From a virus, in IMG/VR virus record IMGVR_UViG_3300033145_003233, positions 62,001 to 126,000 of that record: a stretch of 64,000 nucleotides of DNA, one strand, 5' to 3'. The notes below the pieces were generated by a model. It did no database searches, had not been told where the DNA came from, and saw only the letters and a list, made by a program, of their open reading frames with translations. The translations under genes and the position numbers were made by a program. Positions 1 to 62,040 of the stretch are shown one piece after another; the first letter of the stretch is position 1, and each line of letters begins with the position of its first letter.

Positions 1-24
1 AAGTGAAAAGAATCATAGTATAAT
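1..24 (+). promoter_or_regulatory. partial promoter of the kinase-like gene
   Basis: A perfect TATAAT lies at 19-24, preceded by AAGTGA at 1-6 with 12 bases between. The same AAGTGA-12-TATAAT layout recurs at other promoters in the window (5976, 31809, 36171). The -35 box would fall mostly outside the window. The ATG at 32 is only 7 bases after the -10 box, so the transcript would be leaderless or use another start. Confidence 0.5.
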
Positions 25-31
25 AGTTGCT

Positions 32-12457: not shown

Positions 12458-12512
12458 ACCCAGTTTTGTTAAAAATGAATAATAATGAAGAAATAAGAAA
12501 GGAGCAAAAACA

Positions 12513-13256: not shown

Positions 13257-13272
13257 TTGGACCAAAGAACAT

Positions 13273-13304
13273 GCCCCACCCGTAATTAGGGTGGGGCTTT
13301 ATTT
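13273..13304 (+). terminator. rho-independent terminator after the VWA gene
   Basis: The stem GCCCCACCC / GGGTGGGGC (13273-13281 with 13289-13297) has loop GTAATTA and is followed by TTTATTT. Confidence 0.9.
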
Positions 13305-13318
13305 GAAGGAGATACTAA

Positions 13319-14206: not shown

Positions 14207-14214
14207 GAAACAAA

Positions 14215-16192: not shown

Positions 16193-16217
16193 ATATAATT
16201 ATTTATGGAAAAATAAT

Positions 16218-26789: not shown

Positions 26790-27182
26790 ATGAAAATTAG
26801 AACAGGATTTGTTAGTAATAGTAGTGTCAGTTCTTTCACTATCTATGGATGGACAGAAAAAGATCTGTCCGAACATCTTGCAAGTTTATGTTCCTCTTTT
26901 AAAAATGTGGATGTCAGTATAGATGAGAGCTTTATAGAATCTCTTGATGAAATTTGGGAAGGTAATAAGTGGGATCTTAATTCTACATATGGCCCTGATG
27001 GAAGAATGGTTTTTGGACTTGGCACTCATGATAGTGAGGTAGATCATAGTGGATATGATTATACAGGCGAAAACTTTAAATTTCCAGAACCATCATATAA
27101 AGATCAAAAGAAATTTGACGAATTGGCTAAAAAACTAAAATTACCTCAACCCAAAATGCATCAAGCAACATGGTATGATTAA
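26790..27182 (+). CDS. MKIR-tag protein 1
   Basis: 130 aa. It begins MKIRTGFVSNSSVSSF, the tag shared by eleven genes up to 31786. The rest is acidic (YGPDGRMVFGLGTHDSEVDH, SGYDYTGENF) with no known family. Where the tag ends, similarity to the other copies ends. Confidence 0.75.
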   Translation: MKIRTGFVSNSSVSSFTIYGWTEKDLSEHLASLCSSFKNVDVSIDESFIESLDEIWEGNKWDLNSTYGPDGRMVFGLGTHDSEVDHSGYDYTGENFKFPEPSYKDQKKFDELAKKLKLPQPKMHQATWYD

Positions 27183-27194
27183 TAGGAACTAGAT

Positions 27195-27791
27195 ATGAAA
27201 ATTAGAACAGGCTTTGTTAGTAATAGTTCAAGTGCTTCTTTTGCCATACCGTCTATTCTCCTTACAGACGAGCAAAAAGAAATGCTGCTTAGCATAGATG
27301 ATATGAAAGAAGAAAAAGCAGGATTGCAAGAAAAATTTGGAGATGATCATAATTGGGAAACCTCAAAAAATGATTATCCTGTTAATGAAGAATATCATAG
27401 AATTTATCAGAAAATGCTCGATGATAATAGATGGGACGATAGTTGGTCAATAGGAGAACATAAAGAAGATCAACTAGTCTCAGGAAGCACAATGATGGAA
27501 AATGGTAGTTTGAGAGTATTGATGGAACATATCGGAATAGATATAGAAATAGTTGAAGCCCATGAGCAACTCTCTACTCGCTTGGCAACTCATCCTGAAG
27601 CAGTAAAATATTTTATAGAACTGAATAAAAAATATAGAAAGAAATTCGAAGACCTGGACAAAAAGCAACAAGAGATACAATCAGAATTTCTTGGAGGCGC
27701 TCCTCTTGAAAGAGGCCCTTATGAAATGAGTGACAAAGAATTAGAAGAAAATGAACTACCATATTATAGAAGGGGAAAAGATGAAAATTAG
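27195..27791 (+). CDS. MKIR-tag protein 2
   Basis: 198 aa, the longest of the eleven. Tag MKIRTGFVSNSSSASF, followed by a highly charged helical body with a likely coiled coil (about residues 140-165, KYRKKFEDLDKKQQEIQ). It starts 12 bases after the previous stop, and its end overlaps the next gene by 11 bases. No function known. Confidence 0.75.
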   Translation: MKIRTGFVSNSSSASFAIPSILLTDEQKEMLLSIDDMKEEKAGLQEKFGDDHNWETSKNDYPVNEEYHRIYQKMLDDNRWDDSWSIGEHKEDQLVSGSTMMENGSLRVLMEHIGIDIEIVEAHEQLSTRLATHPEAVKYFIELNKKYRKKFEDLDKKQQEIQSEFLGGAPLERGPYEMSDKELEENELPYYRRGKDEN

Positions 27792-28224
27792 AATAGGATT
27801 TGTAAGCAACAGTAGCACTAGCAGTTTTGTATTAGCTGGTTTTAATTTAGGTCAAGAGAAAGTTTTGTATGAACAGATCTATACCAGCATTACCGGCAAA
27901 ACCGAAGAATACATTACTACCAAGATGAAAGAATCAAAAGGTTATAAAGATGACTCAGACGATCCAGAATATAGAGAAGAATATGTTAGAGAATACCTAT
28001 GGAATGAAATCCAACCTGAGATTGCTATTCAGTCTGGTAGCGAATCCGGAGTTGGAGACAAAACAGTTGTTGGTAGGATGCTAGTATGGTCGGGTTCAGA
28101 TGGAGACTACTGGGACAATATAGAAGTAGATATGGACAAACTATCAAAAGAATTAGAACCCTTAAGACAAATACTTGGGACAGATTCGGAATTGAAGTTG
28201 TTTATCGGTTCTGCATGTTGTTAA
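27781..28224 (+). CDS. MKIR-tag protein 3
   Basis: 147 aa from ATG 27781, chosen because the tag MKIRIGFVSNSSTSSF begins there and GAAGGGG lies just upstream; the longer frame adds ten untagged residues. Body: an acidic helix region, then GSESGVGDKTVVGRMLVWSG. It ends with a double Cys (SACC). Confidence 0.75.
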   Translation: MKIRIGFVSNSSTSSFVLAGFNLGQEKVLYEQIYTSITGKTEEYITTKMKESKGYKDDSDDPEYREEYVREYLWNEIQPEIAIQSGSESGVGDKTVVGRMLVWSGSDGDYWDNIEVDMDKLSKELEPLRQILGTDSELKLFIGSACC

Positions 28225-28234
28225 GGAATGTAAT

Positions 28235-28792
28235 ATGAAAATTAGAACAGGATTTGTGAGCAATAGTTCAACACAGAGCTTCGTGTGTCCTCTTTGCGAT
28301 GATCTCTATCTTCTTATGGACGGAGATCCAGAGACTAACACCTATGCTTTATGTATTTGTAAGAACCATCATGCTTTCTGTCAAGTTCATATTCCCTTCT
28401 CTGTAGAAGAAATTACAAAAGTAATGAAAGAAGAATTAAAAAAGAATCCGCCGGATGCCGTAATTCCTTCACATATTAAAAAAAAGATTGATAAACTTTC
28501 TCTTAGAGAATTAAAAGAATTATTTGATAGGAAGAATGAGGATAAAAAAACAGCGATGGAAATGAATGATTTTATTCATTACTTCTTCCGCAATCTTCCT
28601 ACAAAATTATGTCCCATCTGCACTTTTAAACGCATTCTGCCATGTGATGTTAAAGATTATTTCTTTATAACTGCTGAAATGGACACGGTTTTAAACAATA
28701 TACAAAAAACATTTGGAACTTATAAAAAGTTTCAAAAATTTCTTGATACAAATAGAAATCAAAATTTAGACTGGGACGAAAATGAAGATTAG
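28235..28792 (+). CDS. MKIR-tag protein 4, zinc-binding type
   Basis: 185 aa. The tag MKIRTGFVSNSSTQSF runs straight into a cysteine motif (VCPLCDDL), with CICKNHHAFC and CPICTFKRILPC later, so this copy probably binds zinc. The presence of a zinc module in one copy only shows that the tag is attached to unrelated bodies. Overlaps the next gene by 11 bases. Confidence 0.75.
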   Translation: MKIRTGFVSNSSTQSFVCPLCDDLYLLMDGDPETNTYALCICKNHHAFCQVHIPFSVEEITKVMKEELKKNPPDAVIPSHIKKKIDKLSLRELKELFDRKNEDKKTAMEMNDFIHYFFRNLPTKLCPICTFKRILPCDVKDYFFITAEMDTVLNNIQKTFGTYKKFQKFLDTNRNQNLDWDENED

Positions 28793-29186
28793 AAAAGGTT
28801 TTGTAAGTAATAGTAGCACTTCAAGCTTTATTGTGGGAATCCCTAAAGACTTATCAGAAGAAGAAAAAAAGATCTTCCTAATAAATAAAATGGGAGGAGA
28901 AAAAAGTATATTCTCAGAAATGTTTGAGCCAATAGCAAACCTCATTCTAGGAGGAGATATTGGAGAAGAACGTATTCTTGAATACTGGGGAGAGGATTCT
29001 CTTGAAGGATTGAAAGAGAATTGTTCCGATATGTATGATATAATAATGAAATGTAGAGAAAAAGGTCTGGAAATTCATATGGGAAGTGCTGATGACCAAA
29101 GCTCAGATAGGTCAGAAATATCATTTTGTGGAATGACTATCTATGTAGATGAAGATGATTTCTTTTTTGATAAAGAAGGAAGATAA
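28782..29186 (+). CDS. MKIR-tag protein 5
   Basis: 134 aa. Tag MKIRKGFVSNSSTSSF; acidic body (IGEERILEYWGEDSLEGL, MGSADDQSSDRSEISF). It shares one base with the next gene (stop TAATG). Confidence 0.75.
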   Translation: MKIRKGFVSNSSTSSFIVGIPKDLSEEEKKIFLINKMGGEKSIFSEMFEPIANLILGGDIGEERILEYWGEDSLEGLKENCSDMYDIIMKCREKGLEIHMGSADDQSSDRSEISFCGMTIYVDEDDFFFDKEGR

Positions 29187-29716
29187 TGAAAATCAGAAAT
29201 GGATTTATTTCTAATAGTTCAGCTAGTTCTTTTATCGTTCAAACGAAAAAAGATAAATTTGATATGATTATGGAGAAAGAAATAGGAACTCTTGATCAAG
29301 AACAGGTGAAACTCTTAAAAGAAAACGGTTTTGCTCCGACTACAACAAGCGATCCATTTTCTTTTTTAGAACTTAATAGAAGATCTTGGCCCGATAGTAA
29401 AGGTCAAGAAGAGGATATAGACAATGATGTTTATATGGCCCTTATGGTAGCTTGTAATCAGGATGAAATAATATATCTTTTAGTCAAAAATAATATTCCA
29501 TTTAAAGCAGCTTGTCATTATGGACAAGAGTTTATATGCTATGAAAAAGATTCAGATTATATGTTTAAAGCCAATAATTTTGGCATGGAGGCTTGTATGT
29601 ACGGGGCCGAACATGTCGAAGAAGACAGGTTCAATTCTCCCAAATTCGAGAGAATAGATGTTAAAGGATGGATGGAAAAAGAAGAACCAGTGTTGGAGAA
29701 TGAAGATGAAGATTAG
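29186..29716 (+). CDS. MKIR-tag protein 6
   Basis: 176 aa. Tag MKIRNGFISNSSASSF; then a helical body with KFDMIMEKEIGTLDQEQV and a later cysteine group (CHYGQEFICYEKD, MEACMYGAEH). It ends in an acidic tail that overlaps the next start by 11 bases. Confidence 0.75.
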   Translation: MKIRNGFISNSSASSFIVQTKKDKFDMIMEKEIGTLDQEQVKLLKENGFAPTTTSDPFSFLELNRRSWPDSKGQEEDIDNDVYMALMVACNQDEIIYLLVKNNIPFKAACHYGQEFICYEKDSDYMFKANNFGMEACMYGAEHVEEDRFNSPKFERIDVKGWMEKEEPVLENEDED

Positions 29717-30260
29717 AAATGGATTTGTAAGCAATAGCTCAAGTAGCTCTTTTGTTATAGCCTTTCCGAGCAAACCGAAATCAATAGAAGATGTTAAAAA
29801 AATGATATTCGGACAACAAGAGTGGCATTATTCGGGATATATAGGAAGAGATGAGAGTGACGTTCCAACTCTACCTATTGCAGAGAATGTTTTTTCCAAA
29901 ATAGAAAAGAAAGCAACTAAAAAAGAAATCTTAGAATCAATTAAACATGGATGGTTTGGCCCATATTATGATTCTCTTGAACATCTTCCTGGATATAAAA
30001 GCAGAGATATAGGTGATCAAAAAGAACTTCAAGCATTAAAACATGGTTCTCCTGAGTGGCATAAGCTTTATGATAAAATTGCTAAAGTCGAAGATGAAGA
30101 AAATGAGAAAAGAGCCAACGATATCGTTGAGGCATTTATGTTAATGAATCACAAAAGCTATTTTGTGGTTATGGATTTTTCTGATAATGATGGAGAAGCA
30201 ATAGAAGAACATACAGAGATCTTCGGAAGACTTCCACATATTAGAACAAGTTATCACTAA
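29706..30260 (+). CDS. MKIR-tag protein 7
   Basis: 184 aa from ATG 29706, where the tag MKIRNGFVSNSSSSSF begins; the longer frame from 29658 adds residues encoded inside the previous gene. Body: Lys/Glu-rich helices around HGWFGPYYDSLEHLPGYKSR. Confidence 0.75.
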   Translation: MKIRNGFVSNSSSSSFVIAFPSKPKSIEDVKKMIFGQQEWHYSGYIGRDESDVPTLPIAENVFSKIEKKATKKEILESIKHGWFGPYYDSLEHLPGYKSRDIGDQKELQALKHGSPEWHKLYDKIAKVEDEENEKRANDIVEAFMLMNHKSYFVVMDFSDNDGEAIEEHTEIFGRLPHIRTSYH

Positions 30261-30268
30261 GGAATATT

Positions 30269-30610
30269 ATGAAAATCAGAACAGGATTTATAAGTAATAG
30301 TAGTAGCTCTAGCTTTCTATGTAGGGGAAATTTTACGCCAGAAGAAGCAAAAGATATTTTACAAGAGACATTGGATTTTTACAATAAAATGTGCGGCACT
30401 GACAAGACTTTTGGAAGTGTTTTTGAAGAACCTAGATTAGGAACCAAAGCTGATTTTAAATTTTATTCTGAAGATTGGGAAATTGGAGTTATTGAAGAAG
30501 AAGTTGTTGGACATCTTATTATAAATGGTTGTGATGATAACTCTATTCCTTACGAATTATTTTATTTAATAGAGCGCAAATTTGACGCTCAAAGGTTTCA
30601 TTTAGGATAA
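30269..30610 (+). CDS. MKIR-tag protein 8
   Basis: 113 aa. Tag MKIRTGFISNSSSSSF followed by LCRGNFTPEEAKDILQETL, a helical segment, and an acidic beta-rich end. It has its own AAGGA ribosome site. Confidence 0.75.
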   Translation: MKIRTGFISNSSSSSFLCRGNFTPEEAKDILQETLDFYNKMCGTDKTFGSVFEEPRLGTKADFKFYSEDWEIGVIEEEVVGHLIINGCDDNSIPYELFYLIERKFDAQRFHLG

Positions 30611-30624
30611 GAGGGAGACAAATT

Positions 30625-31014
30625 ATGAAAATAAGAACAGGATTTATAAGCAATAGTAGTAGTTCTTCTTTTGTCGTGCTGGGAGAATGGGTGGCTAGGT
30701 GGAGAGCAAAAGAAGAATTTGCAAATGGAAATAAAAAAATTTACGCTATTGGGGATTCCCTTGGAGATGGAGACGACATTATCCATGTAACCCCCAAACT
30801 AGCCAAATACTTATTCTCCGAATCTCCTGATTTTGATTTTGGAGATATGCAGTTTCTTATAGCTATCGTAGCGGCCAGTGGAGAAGGAACATTTAATACA
30901 TCAGATATTGACCCTACTAAAAATATAGAATTAACCGTAGTCTCTCTGGAAAAGGATATGCATTCCTGCCAGACAAAAGCAGATTTATTAGATATTTATG
31001 GAATAGAAAAATGA
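30625..31014 (+). CDS. MKIR-tag protein 9
   Basis: 129 aa. Tag MKIRTGFISNSSSSSF, then VVLGEWVARWRAKEEF and an acidic body (IGDSLGDGDDIIHVTPKLAKY). The stop overlaps the next start by 4 bases (ATGA). Confidence 0.75.
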   Translation: MKIRTGFISNSSSSSFVVLGEWVARWRAKEEFANGNKKIYAIGDSLGDGDDIIHVTPKLAKYLFSESPDFDFGDMQFLIAIVAASGEGTFNTSDIDPTKNIELTVVSLEKDMHSCQTKADLLDIYGIEK

Positions 31015-31373
31015 AAATCAAAAGAGGTTTTGTAAGTAACAGTTCGACAACATCGTTTATGGCATACGGAATATGCGCAGATAGTAATGAAATTATGGAA
31101 GCCCTTAAAGAAACAGGAACAATTACCGATGGAGAAGATTTTGAATGTATCTCAGACTGGACATGGGATAATCGTAAGGTTCTTGAAGATATGGAAATCG
31201 ATTGTTGGCTTCCTCCGTATGACGATACTTGTTATATGGGAGTTAGTTATAACTGTCTTAAAGATGATGAAACTGGTAAGCAATTCAAGGACAGAGTTAC
31301 AGCAGAAATGAAAAAATTATTAGGGGATAAATTTGATTTCTCCATTATCGAAGATGGATGGAGAGACGGATAA
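31011..31373 (+). CDS. MKIR-tag protein 10
   Basis: 120 aa. The most diverged tag, MKIKRGFVSNSSTTSF; acidic, Trp-rich body (ISDWTWDNRKVLEDMEIDCW) with four cysteines spread through it. Confidence 0.75.
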   Translation: MKIKRGFVSNSSTTSFMAYGICADSNEIMEALKETGTITDGEDFECISDWTWDNRKVLEDMEIDCWLPPYDDTCYMGVSYNCLKDDETGKQFKDRVTAEMKKLLGDKFDFSIIEDGWRDG

Positions 31374-31387
31374 GAAAGAGGTAAGCA

Positions 31388-31786
31388 ATGAAAATTAGAA
31401 TAGGTTTTGTAAGCAATAGCTCAAGCACATCTTATGTGCTAGCTGTAACAAGAAATTTCAAGCTCACGGACGAAAAGAGAAAAGAACTATTTGAAGAGCA
31501 TGTCGATTGGAGCGGCGAAGAAGATATAACAATAGACCAAATAGATGGATACTTTCAGGACATCATTGAACGACTATGCTCTAGTGGAGAAGTATATGAA
31601 GATGATGATGAGCCTCCTCTATTTTACCCCTTTATTACCGTATTTGAAGATGAGATACTCTTCACAACAATAGAGGCAGGTCCAGGGCAAGGAGTCCATA
31701 TCAATCTTCTATCTGACAAGGAAATAGAAAAAACTCTTAAGAAAATGAAAAAAATAATCTCTGAGAATGATGAAACATCATCATAG
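31388..31786 (+). CDS. MKIR-tag protein 11 (last of the array)
   Basis: 132 aa. Tag MKIRIGFVSNSSSTSY, the only copy with Tyr instead of the final Phe. The body is acidic with EDDDEPPLFYPFITVFEDEI. After its stop a new promoter starts the NadD gene, so the array ends here. Confidence 0.75.
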   Translation: MKIRIGFVSNSSSTSYVLAVTRNFKLTDEKRKELFEEHVDWSGEEDITIDQIDGYFQDIIERLCSSGEVYEDDDEPPLFYPFITVFEDEILFTTIEAGPGQGVHINLLSDKEIEKTLKKMKKIISENDETSS

Positions 31787-40469: not shown

Positions 40470-41449
40470 TAGCTCTTTAGTTTTTCCACAAATGCTAATT
40501 TAATAAAAGGTTGCTCTTCATCTTGTTTAAGATAATAAGTTACAAGATATAAGCTTTCATTAAACTTCGCCATGCCAGTATATCCAAAATTATATTGATT
40601 TTTAGGATATTCCCAATCTATAGGAGAATTATCTATTATCTCTCCGCTATCTAAATCATGATTAAAAATAGATACCTGACAAGAATCTGTTTGTCTATAT
40701 GCCCCTATCACATTTTTGCCTTCCCTATTGGCAGTAACCCTTTGCCCAAAAAGTGGAAGTTCAACTGGATTAGACCATGAAATGCCGTCCCTAGAAGAAA
40801 CATAATAAATAGGTCTTTTATGCTTACTATTGTCTCTTAAATATGCTACTAAAAATTCACCCATATTTACGATAGATGCTTCACAATATTGATGTTCTAA
40901 GTCATGAGCTATGATATTTGTATCAAACCATGTCGCTCCGTTGTCCCTAGACCATGTTACAAGTTGGACCAAATCATTCTTAATAGATTTTATTTTATGA
41001 TTAGCACAAAATAATTTATCTTTAAATTTAATAACTCTATCAGGAAGCATACCTGGAATATTTGTAAGATATTTATGGAAAAATTTATATTTATATTTGG
41101 GTTTTATTATAAAAGTTTCGAATTTAGCTTTTCTTTCAATTACACCATCTTTTGTATCACAGACAATACTAGGAAGAGTATTATTATCTAAATAAGAAAA
41201 TCTTGGACAATTCCATACTTTTCCATCTCTTTCTAAGCTTAAAGGAAAAGATTTTATTTCTTTCCATGTTCTGCCCCTATTCTTTGATACCATTAGATGA
41301 AGATATGACCATGTAGGATGATGAGCATTGCCTGACCTATATATAAGAAAGAATTGATTAGGATTATCCTTGCTTTGAATAATATCTGGGAATGATAAAT
41401 AGCTCTCATTATCTTTTGCCACTATTACTGAATTTTTAACTTTAAACAT
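40466..41449 (-). CDS. BNR-repeat (sialidase-like) beta-propeller protein
   Basis: 327 aa. Three Asp boxes can be read: SKNRGRTWKE, SRDNGATWFD and SSRDGISWSN, typical of sialidases and related six-bladed propellers. No signal peptide is present, so it would act inside the cell or be exported with virions. Sialidase activity is not proven by the boxes; the catalytic Arg triad cannot be assigned with certainty. Overlaps the next upstream gene by 8 bases. Confidence 0.7.
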   Translation of the reverse strand: MFKVKNSVIVAKDNESYLSFPDIIQSKDNPNQFFLIYRSGNAHHPTWSYLHLMVSKNRGRTWKEIKSFPLSLERDGKVWNCPRFSYLDNNTLPSIVCDTKDGVIERKAKFETFIIKPKYKYKFFHKYLTNIPGMLPDRVIKFKDKLFCANHKIKSIKNDLVQLVTWSRDNGATWFDTNIIAHDLEHQYCEASIVNMGEFLVAYLRDNSKHKRPIYYVSSRDGISWSNPVELPLFGQRVTANREGKNVIGAYRQTDSCQVSIFNHDLDSGEIIDNSPIDWEYPKNQYNFGYTGMAKFNESLYLVTYYLKQDEEQPFIKLAFVEKLKSY

Positions 41450-51943: not shown

Positions 51944-52255
51944 TTATCTTCTATGTAAATGGGTTATGGCTCCCCTGTGCTTGCCTATTTGTAATTGTAT
52001 CTTTTTCTTTTGCTCATCTGACAACATAGGATTTTTTAATTGCTCTTCTAGTTCTGCAATAGCATCTTGATTAATATATATTTTACGCCATTTGTCAAAT
52101 CTCTTTTTTCCTCTATCAATAAGAAGCTCTTCTTCATCTTTCTGTCTCCATTTTGATAGCTGATCATCGTCATAATTATCTTCTCCCTTATAATATGACA
52201 TATCTCTATCAGAGGGATAGAGCCAACGATTCTGTGATTTCTTATACCAGTTCAC
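51944..52255 (-). CDS. MNWYK-tag protein, 103 aa
   Basis: The start is GTG 52255 (VNWYKKSQNRWLYPSDRD), overlapping the preceding stop (GTGA), because the MNWYKKSQ tag begins there. The rest is charged and helical with a likely coiled coil at residues 65-95. Last of seven tagged genes. Confidence 0.65.
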   Translation of the reverse strand: MNWYKKSQNRWLYPSDRDMSYYKGEDNYDDDQLSKWRQKDEEELLIDRGKKRFDKWRKIYINQDAIAELEEQLKNPMLSDEQKKKIQLQIGKHRGAITHLHRR

Positions 52256-52422
52256 CTGTACGGTTTCCTTAATCTCCCTGTGGGAGTGCATATCCCAACT
52301 CTTACTAAAAGCTCTAAGGCTTTCTCTGGATTGTCCTTCATTTCTTTTCTTTTTTCTCTACACCACTTTTTAAAATTTCTTAATTCTTGTTCTGGTGTAG
52401 GTCTAAATCTGTTTTTGATCAT
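52252..52422 (-). CDS. small basic protein, 56 aa
   Basis: Start ATG 52422, preceded by GGAGATTTTGGG. Basic helical protein (FKKWCREKRKEMKDNPEKAL) lacking the MNWYK tag. It overlaps the genes on both sides; function unknown. Confidence 0.5.
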   Translation of the reverse strand: MIKNRFRPTPEQELRNFKKWCREKRKEMKDNPEKALELLVRVGICTPTGRLRKPYR

Positions 52423-52891
52423 CCCAAAATCTCCATAATTCACCTAAAAATTGATACTGATAAGCAAACTCTTCTGCTTCTCTTTCGTCCATATCGAAGT
52501 TAATTCCTTCTTGTATTCCATGTGCCAACTCATGTAGTATAGACATTTCTAAATCACTTTTCAACTCAGAACCATATTCTGTAGCAATTTCTCTGGTTCT
52601 TTCTATGTCTATAAGGATAACAACCCATGGTTGTGTCCCGCTTATATATCGTGCTATCATCTCCTTTCCATCATTCTGAACAAAACCAACTTTGATATCT
52701 TGAATAAATCCTATTTGTGGTAATAATTCTTTTTTTAATTTGTTTATATATTGTTCTACATATTGGACTATTTGTTGATCTGGGTTGTTATTCATCTCAT
52801 AGTCCCAGTTAGGATCATAATCATGCTCTGCTCCAGGATATTCCCATTTAGGAGATTCTTCAAATTGTTGAGATTTTTTATACCAATTCAT
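52403..52891 (-). CDS. MNWYK-tag zinc-metallopeptidase-like protein
   Basis: 162 aa. Tag MNWYKKSQ at the start. HELAHGIQE at residues 120-128 is an HExxH zinc-peptidase motif with a Glu shortly after; this resembles small metallopeptidase-like domains of mobile elements. A substrate cannot be named. Starts 14 bases inside the PcfJ-like gene's end. Confidence 0.65.
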   Translation of the reverse strand: MNWYKKSQQFEESPKWEYPGAEHDYDPNWDYEMNNNPDQQIVQYVEQYINKLKKELLPQIGFIQDIKVGFVQNDGKEMIARYISGTQPWVVILIDIERTREIATEYGSELKSDLEMSILHELAHGIQEGINFDMDEREAEEFAYQYQFLGELWRFWDDQKQI

Positions 52892-54464
52892 ATTTACCTA
52901 TTTGCTTTTTATTTTTATACCAATTCCCAGTCATAGCAATTGTAGGTTGTGGATTTTGTTGTTTTTCCATTTCTTTTCTTTTTCTCTCTATGTCAAAAAG
53001 TGCTTGAGCACTAGGTATTATGCCTTGTTCTCTATAATCTTTTATTTCATTTAATAAATCTTTTGCAAAACCACCTTCAAGACTTTGCCCTAACCATTCG
53101 TCATGTATATCTGCTTCTGCTTCTTGGAATGCCTCCATAGCTTCTTCATACTCTTCTGGAGTTTCATAATTTTCTTGATGAGGATAATCTAATCCACTTT
53201 CATACTGCATAAAAGTATCTTCTACTTCGTCTATTTGCTTCCATGCCCATCGCTCTACTTCTTGTATGTGTTTCCAGTCTGTTTGTTTTGGATTATTAAC
53301 AATCATATCGTTATATTCTTGGCTGTGCCTTGGCCAACTTTCCAACTCTAGATCTTCTTTCAGAGCAAGATTAACAATAGTTGGAGGAGATTCAGTAATA
53401 TCTCCAGAATATTGATTATCTCTATTTGTGCTTTTTGCCTGAGTTAGAATGCCATCAAGAACTGTTTCTATATCAGAATCAAAAATATATCTTAATCCAT
53501 ATTCATTTTCTGTTCCTTGAAGAATGCTATCTATTGCTCCATTAATATCTGAGATATTTGCACTATCATAAGCATGATAATCTTCTAATTCTTCAAATGA
53601 ATTAATTTCTCTGTTGATTCCTATTTCTTCTCCTCCAGTAGATATCCATTCTTTTATCATGGCTTTAGATGCAGCATCTGGTTCCTGATTTGAGTTACCT
53701 TGAATTTGTTGCCAGCTGCCTGGAGAATATCCACTTGCTCCCCCTATCTCGATTGTAGCATGGGGATGATTTTGAGGATCTCTTAGAGAGTAAATAACAG
53801 TTTCCCCTCTCTCAACATCATTACAATAACTTCCCACACAATGATTCATCTTATTTCCTTCTGCCAATAAATCATTTTCACTTTCTACTCTTTGAATTGT
53901 CCATCCTGCCCATTCCGGGTTTGTCCATTGCGGACCATACTCAATCTGAGCTTTTCTAGTTGGTTCATATTCTTTACCAGTGCCTTGTCCTGCCATCATC
54001 CTGTGCCATTCATCTGAATGCTCTAATGCCTCTTGAAAAGAATAAGAGGATATATCTGGTTTAGGAATAGATCTTTGACTCCAGTCATATATCTCTTGTA
54101 ATTTATTAGAAATAGTATCGAGATTTCTATCTGACAGAAGAGAGTCAGCCTTACTAGGATCTGATATTCTTATTTTTCTAAAATTAACTAAAATCCATTT
54201 TTGTATTTCTGGGAATCTTTTTGCTATTGTTTTTTCTTTAATAGAATAAGGATCTTGTTTCTGAGGAAGTTGCATTTGTTGTAATTCCACAATAGTTAAC
54301 TGAGGATTTTTTCTTACTTCATTTGTAAGAAGTTGAGCAGTTGAAATGTCTAATGATAAAATATAGTTAAGAACATCTTGTCCAACTCCAAGTGTTCCTA
54401 AGTATCTTGCCATGCCTCCTACCGGAGCGGCTTGAGATAATATTGTTTTGAAATACTAATTCAC
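52878..54464 (-). CDS. PcfJ-like protein with amber codon in its MNWYK tag
   Basis: Residues about 190-225 carry MNHCVGSYC, ERGETVIYSLRD and HPHATIEI, the PcfJ-like domain of plasmid and phage proteins. The uninterrupted frame starts at ATG 54413, but upstream the frame continues VN-*-YFKTILSQAAPVGG from a GTG at 54464 that overlaps the previous stop (TAGTG). The TAG (54458-54460) takes the place of Trp in the MNWYK tag. ATG 54413 has GGAGG only 1-2 bases before it, poor spacing. The C-terminus itself ends with a second tag-like copy (TGNWYKNKKQIG) just before the next gene's start, a small tandem duplication. Confidence 0.7.
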
Positions 54465-54937
54465 TATAGCTTAACCTTATGCATAGCCCTAGTGAGCATA
54501 CTATTAATTCGATTAGGAGAATGTCCTTCTCTTTTTAACAGTCGAGTATATTCATTAATGCCTGCCCAATCTTTTTTCACATATAAATCTTTTAATTTAG
54601 CTACAAGCTCCCCTTCTACTACCTCATTATCACTAATAATATCTGTCATAACAGAGGAACCAGGTCTGTGCTCATCCCCCTGCTCTTGGCCTGGATATCG
54701 TGGACCGCGGGCGGCTTCTTTTTTTTCTAATTTCTCTTCCATCTTATCTAATTCTGTATAATAAGTAGGGAATTCTTCCAGATGGTCCATAGCTATATCT
54801 TTAGCAAGCTCTTTATCTTTAGTATGTTCTAATTCTATTTCCTCACCGCGAGAAAGTTCTTTTTGATTAAAATCAGAAGGCTTCTTCTTGTCTGCTAATC
54901 CTCCTGGTAAATTTTTTGCTTGTTTATACCAGTTCAT
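54464..54937 (-). CDS. MNWYK-tag DUF5661 protein
   Basis: 157 aa. Tag MNWYKQAK, then KPSDFNQKELSRGEEIELEH and DIAMDHLEEFPTYYTELDKM, the DUF5661 pattern; later a helical tail. Function of DUF5661 is unknown. Its stop overlaps the next start by one base. Confidence 0.7.
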   Translation of the reverse strand: MNWYKQAKNLPGGLADKKKPSDFNQKELSRGEEIELEHTKDKELAKDIAMDHLEEFPTYYTELDKMEEKLEKKEAARGPRYPGQEQGDEHRPGSSVMTDIISDNEVVEGELVAKLKDLYVKKDWAGINEYTRLLKREGHSPNRINSMLTRAMHKVKL

Positions 54938-54945
54938 AATAATCC

Positions 54946-55563
54946 TTACTTATATTTTAGTAAAATATAATTTTGAGTTTCTGTAGGAGAATGTGCTATC
55001 CAATCTTCCCCATATTTTTCCCATGCATTTTTTACATTTCCTATTCCCCAATCATAAGATCCTAACCTTGTTTCAATATTATCAGGTATATTATAATATT
55101 TTAACATTTGAGGGATTCTTTGATTAAGATAATAATCGGCCACTTGGCTACTTTTATTATAATCCATAGATCCATTCCACCAATCCCAGTTTTTCCCCAT
55201 TCTACTCATCATCTCATTCCAAGTTTTTTCTAAAAATTGAAAATGCCCCCTAGCTCCTGCTTTGCTTCTGTCCATATTGGGATCTTGCCCGCTCGATGAT
55301 TCTATCCCCCATATTTTATTAATATCAATATTTATAGGGGCATTTTCTACTTGTTGGACCTGTGGTTCTTGTGGCGCTTGTTTTTCCTGTTGAGCTTGTT
55401 GAACTTGTTGGGTTAATTCTTGAGGATTTTCTTTAATCCGATTTTCAATATCAAAAACAGATACGCCCAATAATAAAGCTATAGCAGGAACAGCCAAAAA
55501 TCCGAAAGCTGTCCATAATCCCTTAGCTTCTTTATTCATTTGTGCTTTTTTGTACCAATTCAT
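54946..55563 (-). CDS. lytic transglycosylase (SLT type), membrane-anchored, MNWYK tag
   Basis: 205 aa. Tag MNWYKKAQ, then one membrane helix (residues 16-36), a Gln/Pro-rich linker, and an SLT domain with the catalytic Glu in IWGIESSSG (E88), GARGHFQFLEKTW and GSYDWGIGNV. It cleaves peptidoglycan glycan chains without hydrolysis; phages use such enzymes in tails for DNA entry or at lysis. A tag followed by a membrane helix in one protein is informative about where the tagged family acts. Confidence 0.85.
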   Translation of the reverse strand: MNWYKKAQMNKEAKGLWTAFGFLAVPAIALLLGVSVFDIENRIKENPQELTQQVQQAQQEKQAPQEPQVQQVENAPINIDINKIWGIESSSGQDPNMDRSKAGARGHFQFLEKTWNEMMSRMGKNWDWWNGSMDYNKSSQVADYYLNQRIPQMLKYYNIPDNIETRLGSYDWGIGNVKNAWEKYGEDWIAHSPTETQNYILLKYK

Positions 55564-57707
55564 TAGGCAGAGATCCTTTTTCTATACCAATTATAACCCA
55601 ACTTCATTAAGACATAAGGTTGTATATCACCAGGAACTTTGTTCATCAATGCCTCAAAATTTGATGGTTGTCTATTTAGCATATTAGCATAATATTGTGC
55701 TGTTTCATCTATCAACTCAGCCGGTAAGTATGTTCTAACATTTTCTGGAACACTCATCCAAAATTGATGAAGCATACCTGGATATCTGCCCTTATTTCTA
55801 GCAAAAGCTTGACCTATATCTGCTCCATAAGTTTTCAAAAGAGCATCTTGAATATCGGGGGTCAAACTTTTCCAATAACCAGGGTCTCTCATAACATGAT
55901 TCTTTTTCTCTTCTAACAGATACCCTACTTGACCTACATCTTGCCCGCCTAAAATATCATTTTTATACTGAGGAGGCACATAGTCCATCCATTCAGGATG
56001 CCTTCTTAAAGCACCTTTAAAAGCTTCTACTATTTGCTCTCTAGTTATTAGCCCCATAGTTACTAATTTTTCCGCTCTTTGTAGTTTATCATATTTTCCG
56101 CGAGCTTGAGAAACAGGGAATTTGGCAAAATCTGCAAGAACATGTTTTTCAATTTCTCCGGCATCAAATAATTGCAAAATTTGAGGAAACATATAATCAA
56201 TATGCTCTGGATTTCTTTGTAATAATTCTGCCCACTCTGTTTTTAGATTATTTAATGGAAAATTCTGTTTAATATCACTAGGTATTCTCTTATCGTTATA
56301 ATGATAAGGATCTTGACCTATATAGTTATGCCATGCTGAAACCTGTTCCTGTTCAGAAAACATTTTCTGGATGTCAGGAGAAAATTCTGGAAAAAGAATA
56401 GGATTATGGTAAAAGGCACTTTTATGAGCTTGTAAAATACGAGGTTTCATATCCCCTAAAGCATTTCTTACTTCCTCTGGAATACGCCTATAATAATCTT
56501 GAAACGATTCAAATTTTCTTAAATATTCATCAGGCTGTACCCCTACTCCCTCTATTTCCAGAAGCCTATCATTTATTTTTATAGAATATCCTTCTTTAGC
56601 AGCCGTTAAAAATTCTGGGAAATTTGCTCTGTTTTTTTCACTTACTGAACGATATTGATTAGGGTCGTCTTTAATTATCCCCATAATATAATTAATTTTT
56701 TCTGTATCACCCTTTTCAATATCAGCATTCATCAACATTGTTTTTTCAAGGGTTTTATATTGAGCACATTCTTTATAGTCTAGGCCGCTTTGTGATAAAA
56801 AGTTAACAACTGGCTCCCAGTAAGGAGTTAGATTTTCATCTTTATTATGATGACCTCTAATTTCAGATACTCTATTCCCGACTAATCTTACCGCCACTGT
56901 AGCCTTACCATCTACTAGATATAACCAAAAATCTCCTTGTGATAGATATGGTCTAGCCTGACCGCATGCTGTACACCATCCAGTTCCTGTGCTAAATCTT
57001 TTTAACTTGTCTGCATTAGCCTCAAAATTTTTAGAATCTGCTGATTTAGATGGAATTCTTATCCACTCTCCACCTTCTTTAGTTCCTATCTTTTCTACAG
57101 ATTTTTTATCTACATCGGAAGCAAGCTTACCATACCTTTTAAGGATATTCATTTGGGTAGAACCTTGAGTAGTTAATTCATCCCATACTAATCCTAGAGC
57201 TTCAGCATTGATAGGTGGAGGAGCAGCCTTTTTTGTTTCGGGAGAACTATCGAAGATGGGTTTAAGAATAGAAAAAGCAAATGCTGGATTTTCTTTGTAT
57301 ATATCATTTTCTTTAGTTAGATATTCCCACCAATCAGAAAATACTTTCTTCTTATCATCATTAACTACTTTTAGAATTTTTTCTTTCGCTCCTTGAGGAT
57401 CTGCCTGATAAATTCTCATAGCTATTTGTACTTCAGGATTATTTGGATCTTGAGCAAACTCTCTTTCCAAATTTATATCTTTTACATAATTGTTGTTATC
57501 TGAAGAAGGGTCTATCTTAGATTGTAGGGAAGGAAGAAATTCAGTTGATATAATGTTTTCTAAATCTTCTTTGGTTTTTATTTTATTCCAGTCAACAAGC
57601 TTTTCATATTTATAGACAAACAACTTGAGAGCAGGATTAGCTATTCCTAACTTATTAATCTTATCTTTAGCACCAGCAAGTTTTGTTAGTTTTTTATGCC
57701 AATTCAT
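55563..57707 (-). CDS. large MNWYK-tag protein with GTGWCT motif, 714 aa
   Basis: Tag MNWHKKLTKLAG (His variant). Residues about 235-300 hold FSTGTGWCTACGQARPYLSQ, DFWLYLVDGKATVAVR and SEIRGHHNKDENLTPY; this GWC...GDFWLYL...IRG pattern is related in layout to the PcfJ-like core and recurs in phage proteins of unknown role. The rest is helical and repetitive (PEWMDYVPPQYKNDI, NPEHIDYMFPQILQ). Likely structural or internal virion protein, but that is inference. Confidence 0.65.
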   Translation of the reverse strand: MNWHKKLTKLAGAKDKINKLGIANPALKLFVYKYEKLVDWNKIKTKEDLENIISTEFLPSLQSKIDPSSDNNNYVKDINLEREFAQDPNNPEVQIAMRIYQADPQGAKEKILKVVNDDKKKVFSDWWEYLTKENDIYKENPAFAFSILKPIFDSSPETKKAAPPPINAEALGLVWDELTTQGSTQMNILKRYGKLASDVDKKSVEKIGTKEGGEWIRIPSKSADSKNFEANADKLKRFSTGTGWCTACGQARPYLSQGDFWLYLVDGKATVAVRLVGNRVSEIRGHHNKDENLTPYWEPVVNFLSQSGLDYKECAQYKTLEKTMLMNADIEKGDTEKINYIMGIIKDDPNQYRSVSEKNRANFPEFLTAAKEGYSIKINDRLLEIEGVGVQPDEYLRKFESFQDYYRRIPEEVRNALGDMKPRILQAHKSAFYHNPILFPEFSPDIQKMFSEQEQVSAWHNYIGQDPYHYNDKRIPSDIKQNFPLNNLKTEWAELLQRNPEHIDYMFPQILQLFDAGEIEKHVLADFAKFPVSQARGKYDKLQRAEKLVTMGLITREQIVEAFKGALRRHPEWMDYVPPQYKNDILGGQDVGQVGYLLEEKKNHVMRDPGYWKSLTPDIQDALLKTYGADIGQAFARNKGRYPGMLHQFWMSVPENVRTYLPAELIDETAQYYANMLNRQPSNFEALMNKVPGDIQPYVLMKLGYNWYRKRISA

Positions 57708-57708
57708 T

Positions 57709-60138
57709 TTATAATTTTGGTTTATATTCGTTATAAGTTCTTTTCAATACTCTTACCACTGCTCCCCTACCATGAGATGCATTCATTGCTTTTAAACTTT
57801 TTATATATTGAGCAGTAGCATTTGCATCTTGAAATTTAGGAGAAATCTGTGCCATAAGCTCAAAAAATTTCTCTATCACTTCATCAACATTTCTATTTTC
57901 TTTTATAATTCTTTGTTCTGCTAGTTCTCCGAGGTCATATTTGCCAAACCAAGAAGGTAAACCAGCAGGCTTTTCAGGGATAGCTTCAGGGATAGCTTCA
58001 GGAAGAGCTTCAGGAGGAGCTTCAGGTGCGGCCGCAGGATCAACTATTTCTAATTTCTTTATTTGGGTATTTCTATAACGAGCATTAGTAGGTCCTTTGA
58101 TTCCCTTCACATATATTTCTTCTCCCTGTTGTGCTCCACCCCATGGCTCACGATTAGTAAATAGAATATACTTGCTTGCATCTCGACCCCTAAACTCATT
58201 TAGATAATTAGTATATCCTCCACGCTGGAATGGTCTAGAGCTTACAAACTTAAGATGAGCAGTAAAGGTAGAACCTTCATCTACTTCTGTTATATTGTCT
58301 ACTCCAGCAGGTCCTTCTGGTTCAGGCGTAGGAACAGGAGCAGCTATTTGCTCAGGAGCAGCTACTGGTTCAGGCGTAGGAACAGGAGCAGCTATTTGTT
58401 CAGGAGCAGCTACTGGTTCAGACTCTTGAATCGGTGCAGGCTCTAAAGTAATTTGATTGGCCTCTAAATACATCCTAACCATTGCGAGAAGATTCCTTAA
58501 ATTTTTATCTTTTAATCCTATAGTACTAACAATACTTAAATTAACTTTATTTCTACCATCATCATAATCTTCTAAATCTAAACCCCCAACTTTATCCATC
58601 CACCATCTTCTTGCTTCCTTACCTATTCTAAAATCTTCTTCAGAAATATCGGGGGCCTTTCCATAATACCTCCCTCTCTGTTGCGCATTTGGATCATAAC
58701 CTGGCTTGGCCATTTCGTCCTGTTTCCGTTCATAGGAACGAGCACCTCTCCATAGGCTATTTAATAATCTATAATCTCGATCTTGTGCGGCAGGAGTTCT
58801 TAACAAATGAATAGCAGTAGCAAATAACACATCAGAACCGATACTACCATATCCCCATCCTCCTCCTTTATGTTTCTTCTTAGCTTTTGCTTTTTCATAT
58901 TCTTCTCTATATTTTCTTGCACTATTAACCCATCTTTTAAGATTATTAATTGTTTTTACAGCATCAAATGGATCAATACATTTACCCCCGAATTGTTGTT
59001 GTTGAGCGTTTTCTATATCTTCATCTCTAATAACCTTAACAGGTTGTTGTTCTGTTTGTCCACTTTGTCTATTTGTAACATTTCTCATCATAACTTGCTC
59101 TTGCCCATCTGGTCCTCTCATCGTCTTATTCTTCATTTGAGATTGAGGGACTACAACGCCAACGTAAGTGGCCTTTCTTGCTGTAGCTCCTGCTTTTTTA
59201 ACCTGACAAGCATGACAATATTGAGGAGAACTATACCAGAACTGACCATCTAATGGTGGAGCGCCCTCTAATGCTTCAACTTGATTAAAATATGGGGTTT
59301 CCCTTTTAGTCCTGCTCTGTTCAATAACTCCTCTTAATGGAGAATCAGCAGGTAGGGTTTGAAGATAATGCTGTTGTCTTTCTTCGTCTATAGGTATATG
59401 AGTTATTTTAGCAACTAATCTCACTCCAACAGGTTCATAACCATCAAAATTCCATTTCGTTGAACCGTCCCTTGCTGTTGTTGCCTTATATTTTTTAATT
59501 CTAATTACTTCGGAAGGACTTGGAAGAGTTCCAGATACCTTAACTCTTACAAAATCTTCTTTATATGTTCCATTTTGCCATTTAACTGGTTTAGGATATG
59601 GATCAGAAATTTGAACACTAATCTCAGGATAAAACATGTCCTTTAATCTTTTATTAGTCGTGTTTAGTCTTTTAATTAAAGTATTAACTCTGGCAGATGG
59701 AATCTCGAATGTCTCTAATAATGTTGGGTCAGAAGTTACTTTTTCTTCTAAACTAGGAGGAGTGTCTAACTGTTGAGTTAATGGAGCGCCTCCCACTTCT
59801 TCGTCTGCTGCCCCTTGCTCTCCTTCCTTCCCATCAGGCTCAATTACCTCTTCAGGAGGAGCCTGTGCTCTCTGTACATCAACCGGAGTAGGAACAGGCT
59901 CTTCTCCTACATCCATTCCTTGTAAATGAGTCATTAATCCATTGGGATCTCCTACAAGACCCCATAATTGAGGGTCCCTAAAAGCAGGATCTTCTATTGA
60001 CATTTCTCCTATAAATTGATTAATAATTTGAACAACATCTCCACCTTCTTGCAATGATTGCAACGCTTTATTTCTTATATCTGCTTTAGATGCTTCTTTG
60101 CCAAAAATACTCTTTGTTCTTTGTCTATACCAATTCAT
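57709..60138 (-). CDS. largest MNWYK-tag protein, 809 aa
   Basis: Tag MNWYRQRTKSIFGKEAS. Parts: N-terminal acidic/Pro region; a beta-rich section (about 170-330) ending in CHACQVKKAG, a possible metal site; a helical section (400-560); two Pro/Ala/Glu repeat blocks (610-640 and 715-735) flanking a small beta domain (FTAHLKFVSSRPFQRGGYTN) like an OB fold; and a C-terminal helical domain. Not assigned to a family. First gene of the run; AAGGGAT before the ATG. Confidence 0.65.
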   Translation of the reverse strand: MNWYRQRTKSIFGKEASKADIRNKALQSLQEGGDVVQIINQFIGEMSIEDPAFRDPQLWGLVGDPNGLMTHLQGMDVGEEPVPTPVDVQRAQAPPEEVIEPDGKEGEQGAADEEVGGAPLTQQLDTPPSLEEKVTSDPTLLETFEIPSARVNTLIKRLNTTNKRLKDMFYPEISVQISDPYPKPVKWQNGTYKEDFVRVKVSGTLPSPSEVIRIKKYKATTARDGSTKWNFDGYEPVGVRLVAKITHIPIDEERQQHYLQTLPADSPLRGVIEQSRTKRETPYFNQVEALEGAPPLDGQFWYSSPQYCHACQVKKAGATARKATYVGVVVPQSQMKNKTMRGPDGQEQVMMRNVTNRQSGQTEQQPVKVIRDEDIENAQQQQFGGKCIDPFDAVKTINNLKRWVNSARKYREEYEKAKAKKKHKGGGWGYGSIGSDVLFATAIHLLRTPAAQDRDYRLLNSLWRGARSYERKQDEMAKPGYDPNAQQRGRYYGKAPDISEEDFRIGKEARRWWMDKVGGLDLEDYDDGRNKVNLSIVSTIGLKDKNLRNLLAMVRMYLEANQITLEPAPIQESEPVAAPEQIAAPVPTPEPVAAPEQIAAPVPTPEPEGPAGVDNITEVDEGSTFTAHLKFVSSRPFQRGGYTNYLNEFRGRDASKYILFTNREPWGGAQQGEEIYVKGIKGPTNARYRNTQIKKLEIVDPAAAPEAPPEALPEAIPEAIPEKPAGLPSWFGKYDLGELAEQRIIKENRNVDEVIEKFFELMAQISPKFQDANATAQYIKSLKAMNASHGRGAVVRVLKRTYNEYKPKL
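58320..58420 (-). repeat. Pro/Ala coding repeat
   Basis: Two near-identical 57-base units in the coding strand give the peptide EPVAAPEQIAAPVPTPEP twice (58320-58420). It is a coding tandem repeat, not a CRISPR: the units abut without unique spacers. Confidence 0.8.
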
Positions 60139-60207
60139 TTAGATATCCCTTACTGTAATCGCACACTGTCTGTAGAAATATGTTTCTATATTCGATAAAA
60201 ATCTCCA

Positions 60208-60240
60208 AAATCCTATATATATTTCTGAAAGGATTTTTAT
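60208..60240. repeat. inverted repeat between divergent genes
   Basis: AAAATCCT (60210) and AGGATTTT (60229) flank 11 bases, followed by T's on the plus strand. It lies between the divergent genes starting at 60138 (minus) and 60266 (plus) and could be an operator or a weak terminator. Confidence 0.4.
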
Positions 60241-60265
60241 ACCATAAAAACGAATAATAAGTATT

Positions 60266-61255
60266 ATGATAGGGAAATTATTACAACCTCTGAATTCTCT
60301 ACAATTGCCATCAAACCTTTTCATTGCTAGCGATAATCCTATCACTGAATATGATAGAATATGGATTAGAGATAATCTATATAGCGCCCTAGCTTATGAG
60401 GCAACTGGACAACAAAAAATAGTAGAAAAAATATACCACGCCCTACTAGACCTCTTCCTTAAATTTGAATGGAAAATTGATGAAGTAATACGAGAAAAAC
60501 CAACAGAAGACTATAAATTTCTACATCCTATGTACACAAAAGACCTAGAAGAAATAACAGCAGGATGGGGATGGAAACAAAATGATACAATTGGTGGATT
60601 TTTATACCATATAGGAAAATTGTGGGATAAAAAATATAATGTTATTAGAAATGGTATAGATCTAAAAATAATTAATAAACTTGCACGTTATCTAGAATCT
60701 ATACAATACTGGGAAGATGAAGATAATGGGATGTGGGAAGAGAACAAAGAAATTCATGCCTCTTCAGTAGGAGCATGTGTAGCAGGATTGAAGTCAGTAA
60801 GTAACCTCATCCATATTCCTCATGAGGTAATTGCAAATGGAGAAAAAACACTAACACAACTCCTTCCAAGAGAATCTCAGGAAAAACCAGTTGATCTATC
60901 TCTTCTAAGTCTTATATGTCCATATCAAATTACAACTCTTAAACAAACATATCAAATTCTTCAAAATATAGAAACTTATCTAATTAGAAAAAAAGGATCA
61001 ATTAGATATATAGGAGATAAATATTATATGGAAAATGATATAGAGGCAAGCTGGACTATGGGGCTACCATGGTTAGCGATATGTTATTATCTTTTGAAAG
61101 ACTTTGACAAATACAATCATTATATAGCAATGTCTATTGAGTGTCTTAATAGAAGAATGGAAATGCCAGAATTATATAAGGAAGATAAAATTCCCAATGA
61201 GAATACTCCATTAGGATGGCCCCAATCATTACTAATTGTAGCTCTTAGTTTATAG
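60266..61255 (+). CDS. GH15-like (glucoamylase / phosphorylase-kinase-type) protein
   Basis: 329 aa. YDRIWIRDNLYSALAYEATG, DNGMWEENKEIHASSVGACV and NTPLGWPQSLLIVAL are the alpha/alpha-barrel motifs of GH15-like enzymes (the Glu in MWEE corresponds to the catalytic region). Would act on alpha-glucans or glycans, consistent with the glycan cluster at 18.5-25 kb. No signal peptide. No ribosome site is visible, and ATAATA lies close to the start. Confidence 0.75.
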   Translation: MIGKLLQPLNSLQLPSNLFIASDNPITEYDRIWIRDNLYSALAYEATGQQKIVEKIYHALLDLFLKFEWKIDEVIREKPTEDYKFLHPMYTKDLEEITAGWGWKQNDTIGGFLYHIGKLWDKKYNVIRNGIDLKIINKLARYLESIQYWEDEDNGMWEENKEIHASSVGACVAGLKSVSNLIHIPHEVIANGEKTLTQLLPRESQEKPVDLSLLSLICPYQITTLKQTYQILQNIETYLIRKKGSIRYIGDKYYMENDIEASWTMGLPWLAICYYLLKDFDKYNHYIAMSIECLNRRMEMPELYKEDKIPNENTPLGWPQSLLIVALSL

Positions 61256-61654
61256 CTATTTAGACCAATGTTTGGGAGTTTTTGTGTGTTTTCTGCGATA
61301 GAGATTAGTTTCATATTTAGGAGGAGAATGACCATTACAAATTGGAGACTCTTTTCTATACGTCCTTCTCTGGGGAGTTCTATTCCTAAATTTTCTCCAA
61401 TCTCTTCTATATTGTAAATTATACATAGCCCTTCTACTATCCCAACTATGAGCACAATTATAAGTATTATAAGGGTGTTGCCTAATCACACGAGGGGAAT
61501 AACCGCTACGATTTTTTCTATTTTGAATTAGTTTTCTTTGAGCAACCGTCCGTCTATCTTTTAATAGTCTTCTTCGTCTGGTTCTTTTGGACTCTCCAGA
61601 AGCCACAGATGGAAGAAGTAGTAAAATCATGATAAATAAAAATGTCTTTTTCAT
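61256..61654 (-). CDS. secreted arginine-rich protein, 132 aa
   Basis: Start ATG 61654 with GAAAGGA upstream. Signal peptide (TFLFIMILLLLPSVASG) then SKRTRRRRLLKDRRT and many further Arg residues throughout. Nothing similar is known to me. Two Cys and repeated His/Tyr in the second half. A basic patch directly after the cleavage site is also seen in the proteins at 1322, 2197 and 39287. Confidence 0.65.
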   Translation of the reverse strand: MKKTFLFIMILLLLPSVASGESKRTRRRRLLKDRRTVAQRKLIQNRKNRSGYSPRVIRQHPYNTYNCAHSWDSRRAMYNLQYRRDWRKFRNRTPQRRTYRKESPICNGHSPPKYETNLYRRKHTKTPKHWSK

Positions 61655-61985
61655 TATTGTCCTTTCAAAAAATAGAAAGCAGGCAGGAATCTTCTCTGTA
61701 ATATGCCTTGCGGCTATTATCCTGCTGCAACAGATTGCCCGAGTACACGCTTTCAGCCGTCCGTCGGTACACGCCTTCCACGCCGCTGCTTCCCTAAAAC
61801 ATCCTAAAAGTAGGCAGTTGGTTTGCCTCCTATCTCCACAAGGGAAATAGGGATAAAATTTAACACTGCAACCTTTTTCAGCGGTAAAGACGCAAGTATC
61901 CAAAAGCCACTAAGGAACGGCAATCTCCACAAGTCAGGCTACCACACCACTACTTTCAAGAAATATCAATTTTTTAATGAACTAT
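61655..61985 (-). ncRNA. G+C-rich, probably structured non-coding region
   Basis: Some 330 bases upstream of the Arg-rich gene hold no credible gene. By count 61681-61740 is 48% and 61741-61800 60% G+C, against about a third elsewhere. On the minus strand GCC-GCAA-GGC (a GNRA-capped hairpin, 61710-61721), GCAATCTGTTGC, two CGTGTAC copies and two TTGTGGAGAT copies can be seen. It may be a stable RNA or long 5' leader; I cannot match it to a known class. Confidence 0.4.
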
Positions 61986-61987
61986 CT

Positions 61988-62040
61988 AAAAAGAAAGCAT
62001 CAAACTGAAGTGCTCCAGCCTGATGCTTTCCGGAGGGGAG
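61988..62040 (-). terminator. hairpin terminator (minus strand), possible attenuator
   Basis: GAAAGCATCA (read on the minus strand from 62040) pairs with TGATGCTTTC ending at 61993, followed by TTTTT. It lies only about 20 bases downstream of the promoter at 62058, so it would cut the transcript to about 60 bases unless read through. Confidence 0.7.

Follow-up and report, generated by a model that had tools for sequence, protein, structure and literature searches.

Why should neighboring genes that encode unrelated proteins open with nearly the same handful of residues? The question is raised by seven genes at positions 51944–60138 of the window, the 64,000-nucleotide stretch analyzed here, which comprises bases 62001–126000 of a 547,943-bp phage record in IMG/VR (IMGVR_UViG_3300033145_003233); the whole record was scanned in pieces. 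The shared element, a peptide of about seven residues with the consensus N-W-Y-K-x-[AS]-Q (hereafter the tag), is a linear address that is carried by proteins with nothing else in common and that can change ends from one homolog to another. This address may well load its bearers into the capsid for delivery with the DNA.

The tagged genes of the window are listed below.

51944–52255, minus strand: 103-aa protein of unknown family with a GTG start; tag MNWYKKSQ (52232–52255)
52403–52891, minus strand: zincin-like HELAH protein; tag MNWYKKSQ (52868–52891)
52878–54413, minus strand: PcfJ-like protein (PF14284, E=8e-11); C-terminal tag only, NWYKNKKQ (52902–52925)
54464–54937, minus strand: DUF5661 protein (PF18905, E=1e-10); tag MNWYKQAK (54914–54937)
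54946–55563, minus strand: SLT lytic transglycosylase (PF01464, E=2.2e-5); tag MNWYKKAQ (55540–55563), membrane helix, and P/Q-rich linker
55563–57707, minus strand: 714-aa protein, no Pfam match; MNWHKKLT (57684–57707) and C-terminal NWYRKRISA (55566–55592)
57709–60138, minus strand: 809-aa protein, no Pfam match; N-terminal tag MNWYRQRT (60115–60138)
1–508, plus strand: 3' part of an AAA_33 kinase (PF13671, E=6.7e-16); its tag, MNWYKKTV, lies left of the window (record 61975–61998)

As first described, the cluster consists of seven consecutive minus-strand genes, which lie almost end to end (intergenic gaps of 147, −14, 50, 8, −1, and 1 bases). The original prediction placed the tag at the N-terminus of all seven. 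This is correct for six, which open with M-N-W-[YH]-[KR], but not for the PcfJ-like gene, which begins with MARYLGTLG and carries the motif near its C-terminus (GNWYKNKKQ). That copy had been taken for a duplicate; the motif is real, but it is the only copy in the gene and is N-terminal in the homologs of two other phages. The second copy at the C-terminus of the 714-aa protein had gone unmentioned. In the 103-aa gene the tag requires the GTG start at 52255, the listed ATG at 52291 being upstream.

The Pfam matches bear out the transglycosylase, DUF5661, and PcfJ-like labels. The zinc-peptidase-like label is based on the HELAH motif, which is conserved as HELGH in a tagged homolog from another phage, and on a weak fold match to the zincin 3e11. 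The 714-aa and 809-aa proteins have no relatives in viral_contigs, and the former has no sequence match in PDB or INPHARED.

Extent of the tag

The tag recurs across the genome, where the original prediction had proposed to look for it: 17 of the 750 called genes in the record are N-terminally tagged, at 5.4–9.0, 58.9–62.5, 114–122 (the window cluster), 288–293, and 516 kb. Shuffling of the first residues yielded 0.05 tags on average and never more than 1 in 300 trials. A pattern scan of IMG/VR retrieved 17 further records, giving 18 records with 1–16 exact matches each, and the reversed DNA pattern had no match across these 18. The shuffle counts and the reversed-pattern zero thus indicate that the tag does not arise by chance. 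A second, looser pattern scan added further contigs.

The stretches fetched from 17 phage records contain 129 tagged genes. BLAST comparison of their products without the first ten residues resolved 21 clusters and 64 singletons; since a few clusters represent distant members of one family, the number of families is put at about 80. Tagged genes are clustered, with 62 adjacent pairs against 9.8 expected, 61 of them on the same strand. These counts are approximate because they derive from greedy open reading frame calls on metagenomic assemblies. The idea of a short tag on diverse cargo, already put forward from the cluster, thus has strong support, and it applies to dozens of protein families in many phages.

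The constraint acts on the peptide

Over the tagged genes, the residue frequencies are 0.89 for N2, 0.89 for Y4 (F, 0.09), and 0.82 for K5; W3 reaches 1.00, but it was required by the search pattern. Position 6 is K, Q, or R, position 7 is A or S at 0.66, and Q8 is found at 0.37, while the columns past residue 8 drop to near background. In a pattern-free test of these genomes, no other tripeptide came close to NWY in N-terminal enrichment, which was about 43-fold relative to the interiors of proteins. The tag takes phage-specific forms, such as MNWYKWAQ in record G048, MNWF in several genes of G007, MWYKxAQ, in which the Asn is missing, in the 378-kb record G049, and MNWYKxIKxALP in eleven paralogs of G009.

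The Tyr codons TAT and TAC occur 99 and 16 times, against a background of 82% TAT, and AAC is over-used at Asn2 (41% versus 22% in the background). Since synonymous codons are mixed, the constraint acts on the peptide. If the conserved stretch were instead a DNA or RNA element acting at the start codon, such as a translation enhancer or another regulatory site, the location of most copies and the excess of AAC would be accounted for; this explanation is ruled out by the synonymous codon variation together with the internal and C-terminal copies described below, and we give it practically no weight.

The tag might also be functionless at present, having spread through recombination, duplication, and fusion within accessory-gene clusters. 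Such spread would leave behind paralog arrays, like that of eleven copies in G009, and fusions of tagged paralogs, of which one gene is an example. Nevertheless, W3 is invariant and Y4 and K5 nearly so over some 80 families with varied synonymous codons, the residues past position 8 are free to change, and moves between the ends of homologous proteins would require repeated selection. We consider this explanation very improbable.

A comparison of promoters between tagged and virion genes had usable upstream regions for three tagged genes only. A separate N-terminal K-Y-A motif appeared suggestive in virion genes and was dropped for want of genome-wide enrichment.

The tag changes its position on homologous proteins

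The PcfJ-like homologs in L211 (29% identical) and L210 (33%) carry the tag at the N-terminus and none at the C-terminus, the opposite of the window copy. A similar exchange is found among CCA-adding enzymes (PolyA_pol). The G007 enzyme has its tag at residue 2. In its relatives from G000 and G015 (36% and 40% identity over 543 and 546 residues, respectively), the tag comes immediately behind the enzyme body, at residue 742 in the first and 781 in the second. Large relatives in G001, G006, G008, G010, and G012 have an internal tag, and three shorter, distinct copies (G001, G006, and G012/G004) have none. In addition, the protein at record 59285–61426 bears an internal tag directly before a domain whose tagged stand-alone copy is encoded by the neighboring gene. 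The tagging of homologous enzymes at differing ends identifies a portable address rather than a start-codon element. Independence of position likewise excludes a promoter or a secretion-type signal and fits a linear address.

A tag-like end is also observed in a conserved virion-region protein (L028:4512–5858; record 524509–525858) and four relatives, which terminate in TLPGGRSRWFRYLF in five phages.

The membrane helix belongs to the wall hydrolases

One tag copy had been noted to precede a membrane helix, and the MNWYKKAQ transglycosylase does contain such a helix at residues 19–37. The accompanying suggestion that the tag may direct proteins to a membrane is not supported, because a helix right after the tag is essentially confined to cell-wall hydrolases among the tagged proteins. 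Relatives of the transglycosylase share the tag, the helix, and the P/Q-rich linker, which are followed by a phage lysozyme in L198 or a weak Hydrolase_2 match in L089. Judging from these sequences, the N-terminal module of the wall hydrolases is retained while the enzyme is interchanged.

The peptide itself could instead anchor proteins at a membrane surface through its aromatic and basic residues: W-Y is followed by K or R, and residues 3–9 are predicted, at low confidence, to be helical and apart from the domain. Such an anchor is hardly credible, as conservation takes in the polar Q and ends at residue 8, and the wall hydrolases keep the tag despite having a membrane helix of their own.

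Proteins that carry the tag

The tagged Pfam families comprise PcfJ-type proteins (N-terminally tagged in L211 and L210), DUF5661, SLT, HicA, HTH, ART-PolyVal, AAA_33, GNAT, cREC, PolyA_pol, 2'-5' RNA ligase/2H, Acb1, sigma-70 region 4, HD, MerR, methyltransferase, and Tad6, as well as a weak KTSC match and a polyvalent-type InPase (E=9.5e-45). PHROGs labels on tagged proteins add polynucleotide kinase, tRNA nucleotidyltransferase, RNA ligase, and toxin. Many of these are counter-defense, RNA-repair (the kinase, ligase, and nucleotidyltransferase), or cell-wall proteins. A counter-defense example is Tad6, whose match (E=5e-35; G007 40558–40926) falls in a tagged gene with its start at 40980. 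The tag is present on both ART-PolyVal copies found in the records and on both copies of another counter-defense candidate, a 2H protein related to Acb1; the Acb1 scores are weak, one just over and one under the curated cut-off, and we therefore refer to these as Acb1-like 2H proteins. Most tagged proteins have a single domain and fewer than 300 residues, and some large ones combine domains.

Replication and structural families are absent from the tagged families with a name, as far as the tallies extend (in Pfam the top 25 of 43, in PHROGs the top 25 of 88). A size-matched set of untagged proteins from the same records contained ribonucleotide reductase, NAD synthase, dUTPase, IF-3, glycosyltransferases, lectins, and one cREC.

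This repertoire bears on two further explanations. The first is that the tag addresses an intracellular site, such as a phage nucleus, an early vesicle, a replication site, or another phage scaffold, rather than the virion. A linear, position-independent address would be equally expected in that case, and many tagged genes are distant from the virion module. However, the cargo does not consist of replication or transcription machinery, and it is hard to see why peptidoglycan hydrolases, HicA, and anti-signaling enzymes would need a common site, which makes an intracellular destination unlikely.

The second is that a phage or host regulator (a chaperone, a protease adaptor, or an inhibitor) binds the tag and holds the cargo inactive or sets its stability. 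HicA, ART, and the wall hydrolases could damage the producing cell and would warrant such control, but innocuous-looking proteins (DUF5661, KTSC-like, and HTH) are tagged as well. Such regulation appears quite unlikely to us; it is also compatible with packaging, and both could hold.

Two further observations concern the cargo. In the tagged run at L211:213–6041, glucose-6-phosphate dehydrogenase (E=6e-63), an unusual phage cargo, lies beside an untagged 2-hydroxyacid-dehydrogenase-like gene. Eleven tagged paralogs of about 125 residues, termed 'IGH', form one 8-kb array (L082:15505 to L083:4805) and have invariant GH, W, and GR. The 'IGH' family, the most frequent cargo, gave a usable structure model, which had no significant match in PDB.

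Phages that carry the tag

The virion genes of the record are located at about 500–548 and 1–38 kb and include tail fibers, the portal (18958–21243), and a 1868-aa protein (L002:12203–17806; record 12200–17806) with a head-maturation-protease domain at residues 61–199. The rest of the 1868-aa protein is long and unassigned; the protein is possibly a protease–scaffold fusion and is a candidate receptor for the tag. Four tagged genes (5.4–9.0 kb) lie inside the virion module, between the tail fibers and the protease and portal genes.

Among isolates, Bacillus phage G has the closest portal (31.7% identity with 58% query coverage, E=6e-71). Among 35 records with relatives of the portal, gathered from IMG/VR without using the tag, 19 contain it; with the records already found through the tag set aside, the proportion is 14 of 30, and 9 of the 12 of those that are at least 40 kb long. 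The reversed pattern gave no match in the portal-relative records. The N-terminal tag pattern is missing from phage G, as it is from three further phages that are distant. The portal survey and these distant negatives indicate that the tag is a trait of this portal clade. It is also present in G048 and G049, which may belong to this clade or fall outside it.

The searches for the T4 gp23 and gp21 (PF03420) families returned no match, with their positive control also silent, and terminase PF03237 gave a single sub-threshold match. A scan of genome_contigs produced three matches, two of them without a listed N-terminally tagged gene. The third is a contig binned in a Patescibacteria metagenome-assembled genome (L151; JAIPJN010000023.1). 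It encodes an HExxH protein that bears the tag and resembles G016_19377, which reflects either a binning error or a hint of the host.

A proposed capsid-loading address

Of the functions first suggested, capsid or virion targeting is the best backed, because of the cargo: Tad6, ART-PolyVal, the polyvalent InPase, tRNA-repair enzymes, and peptidoglycan hydrolases. On the basis of domain fusions and gene neighborhoods, Iyer et al. (PMC5512222) reasoned that phages deliver ART, InPase, GNAT, nucleotidyltransferase, and lysozyme domains. These domains are of the same kinds as those found here in tagged separate genes, and they therefore provide the strongest, and independent, support for packaging. 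The greatest use of tRNA-repair and anti-signaling enzymes would fall in the first minutes of infection, which also favors packaging. The clustering of the tagged genes, the location of four of them in the virion module, and the different, largely metabolic and glycan-related make-up of the untagged set likewise count in its favor.

In the mechanism that we propose, a scaffold, core, or portal-associated protein would bind the tag peptide during head assembly, and unrelated tagged proteins would thereby be recruited into the forming head and packed alongside the DNA. Delivered with the DNA, the cargo would be active at once in the new host, with putative roles in counter-defense, tRNA repair, protein modification, and breach of the cell wall. 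We infer the packaging, the ejection or delivery, and the identity of the receptor.

Several points weigh against this proposal. Most tagged clusters of the record do not adjoin head genes. A prohead-protease-like [LI]xE motif within residues 9–30 is not enriched, occurring in 25% of tagged and 20% of untagged proteins. The membrane-anchored hydrolases might act as signal-anchor endolysins, a role for which packaging is unnecessary, and the tagged glucose-6-phosphate dehydrogenase is no obvious injected effector. With these points taken into account, a capsid-loading address with cargo delivered alongside the DNA still appears reasonably probable. In a fuller picture, to which we assign an even chance, a clade of giant phages would use a seven-residue code for virion loading that is independent of position and varies in form among phages. 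Dozens of unrelated early effectors would thereby be carried as separate, interchangeable genes, and the delivered arsenal, with counter-defense proteins yet to be recognized among it, could be read from the genome.

Comparison with known systems

Phage T4 provides the closest precedent. Its proteins IPI, IPII, IPIII, and Alt bear a capsid-targeting peptide and are clustered and fast-changing, several of them acting in counter-defense (PMC9026906, PMC12373910). As in the present case, a short peptide is common to otherwise unrelated proteins. The T4 sequence, however, is different and N-terminal, and gp21 cuts it near residue 10, whereas the present tag also occurs internally and C-terminally, has no enriched cleavage motif, and serves far more cargo families. 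These differences in sequence, position, and cleavage make the tag T4-like in its proposed working rather than a member of the T4 type. In phage P1, the N-terminal signal of DarB alone loads a reporter into the capsid, and the Dar proteins have no common consensus (PMC9024508), in contrast to the clear motif common to the cargo here. Both precedents support packaging in that short terminal sequences are enough for loading.

Polyvalent proteins (PMC5512222) contain the same repertoire (ART-PolyVal, InPase, GNAT, nucleotidyltransferase, zincin, and peptidoglycan hydrolase) fused in one giant polypeptide, whereas here the domains are mostly encoded by separate genes with an address peptide. The giant phages phiKZ and SPN3US package and eject many head proteins; no common short tag on unrelated cargo is described for them (PMC13282480), and the present portal is nearest to that of phage G. 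The phage G group has a homologous portal but does not share the tag. Encapsulin cargo-loading peptides are short, portable, and often C-terminal, and they load diverse proteins into an HK97-fold shell. They differ from the tag in sequence, have few cargo types, and are non-viral. In the open-access literature, which was the scope of the search, the motif is not mentioned for any phage.

If the proposal is correct, the proteins that these giant phages deliver with their DNA would be predictable from sequence alone, and each relative with a sequenced genome would yield a set of candidates for counter-defense and host takeover. Of the 129 tagged proteins, 64 have no relative elsewhere in the set. 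The tag would also offer a short peptide for loading very large capsids, flexible in its position on the cargo.

Neighboring genes in the window

A glycoside hydrolase family 15-like gene (PF00723, E=7e-11; window 60266–61255, plus strand) adjoins the tagged cluster on the opposite strand. At window 26790–31786 (plus strand), each of the ten genes in an array opens with MKIRxGF[VI]SNSSSxSF; this MKIR signature, longer than the tag, is another N-terminal sequence that the genome places on proteins of varied kinds.

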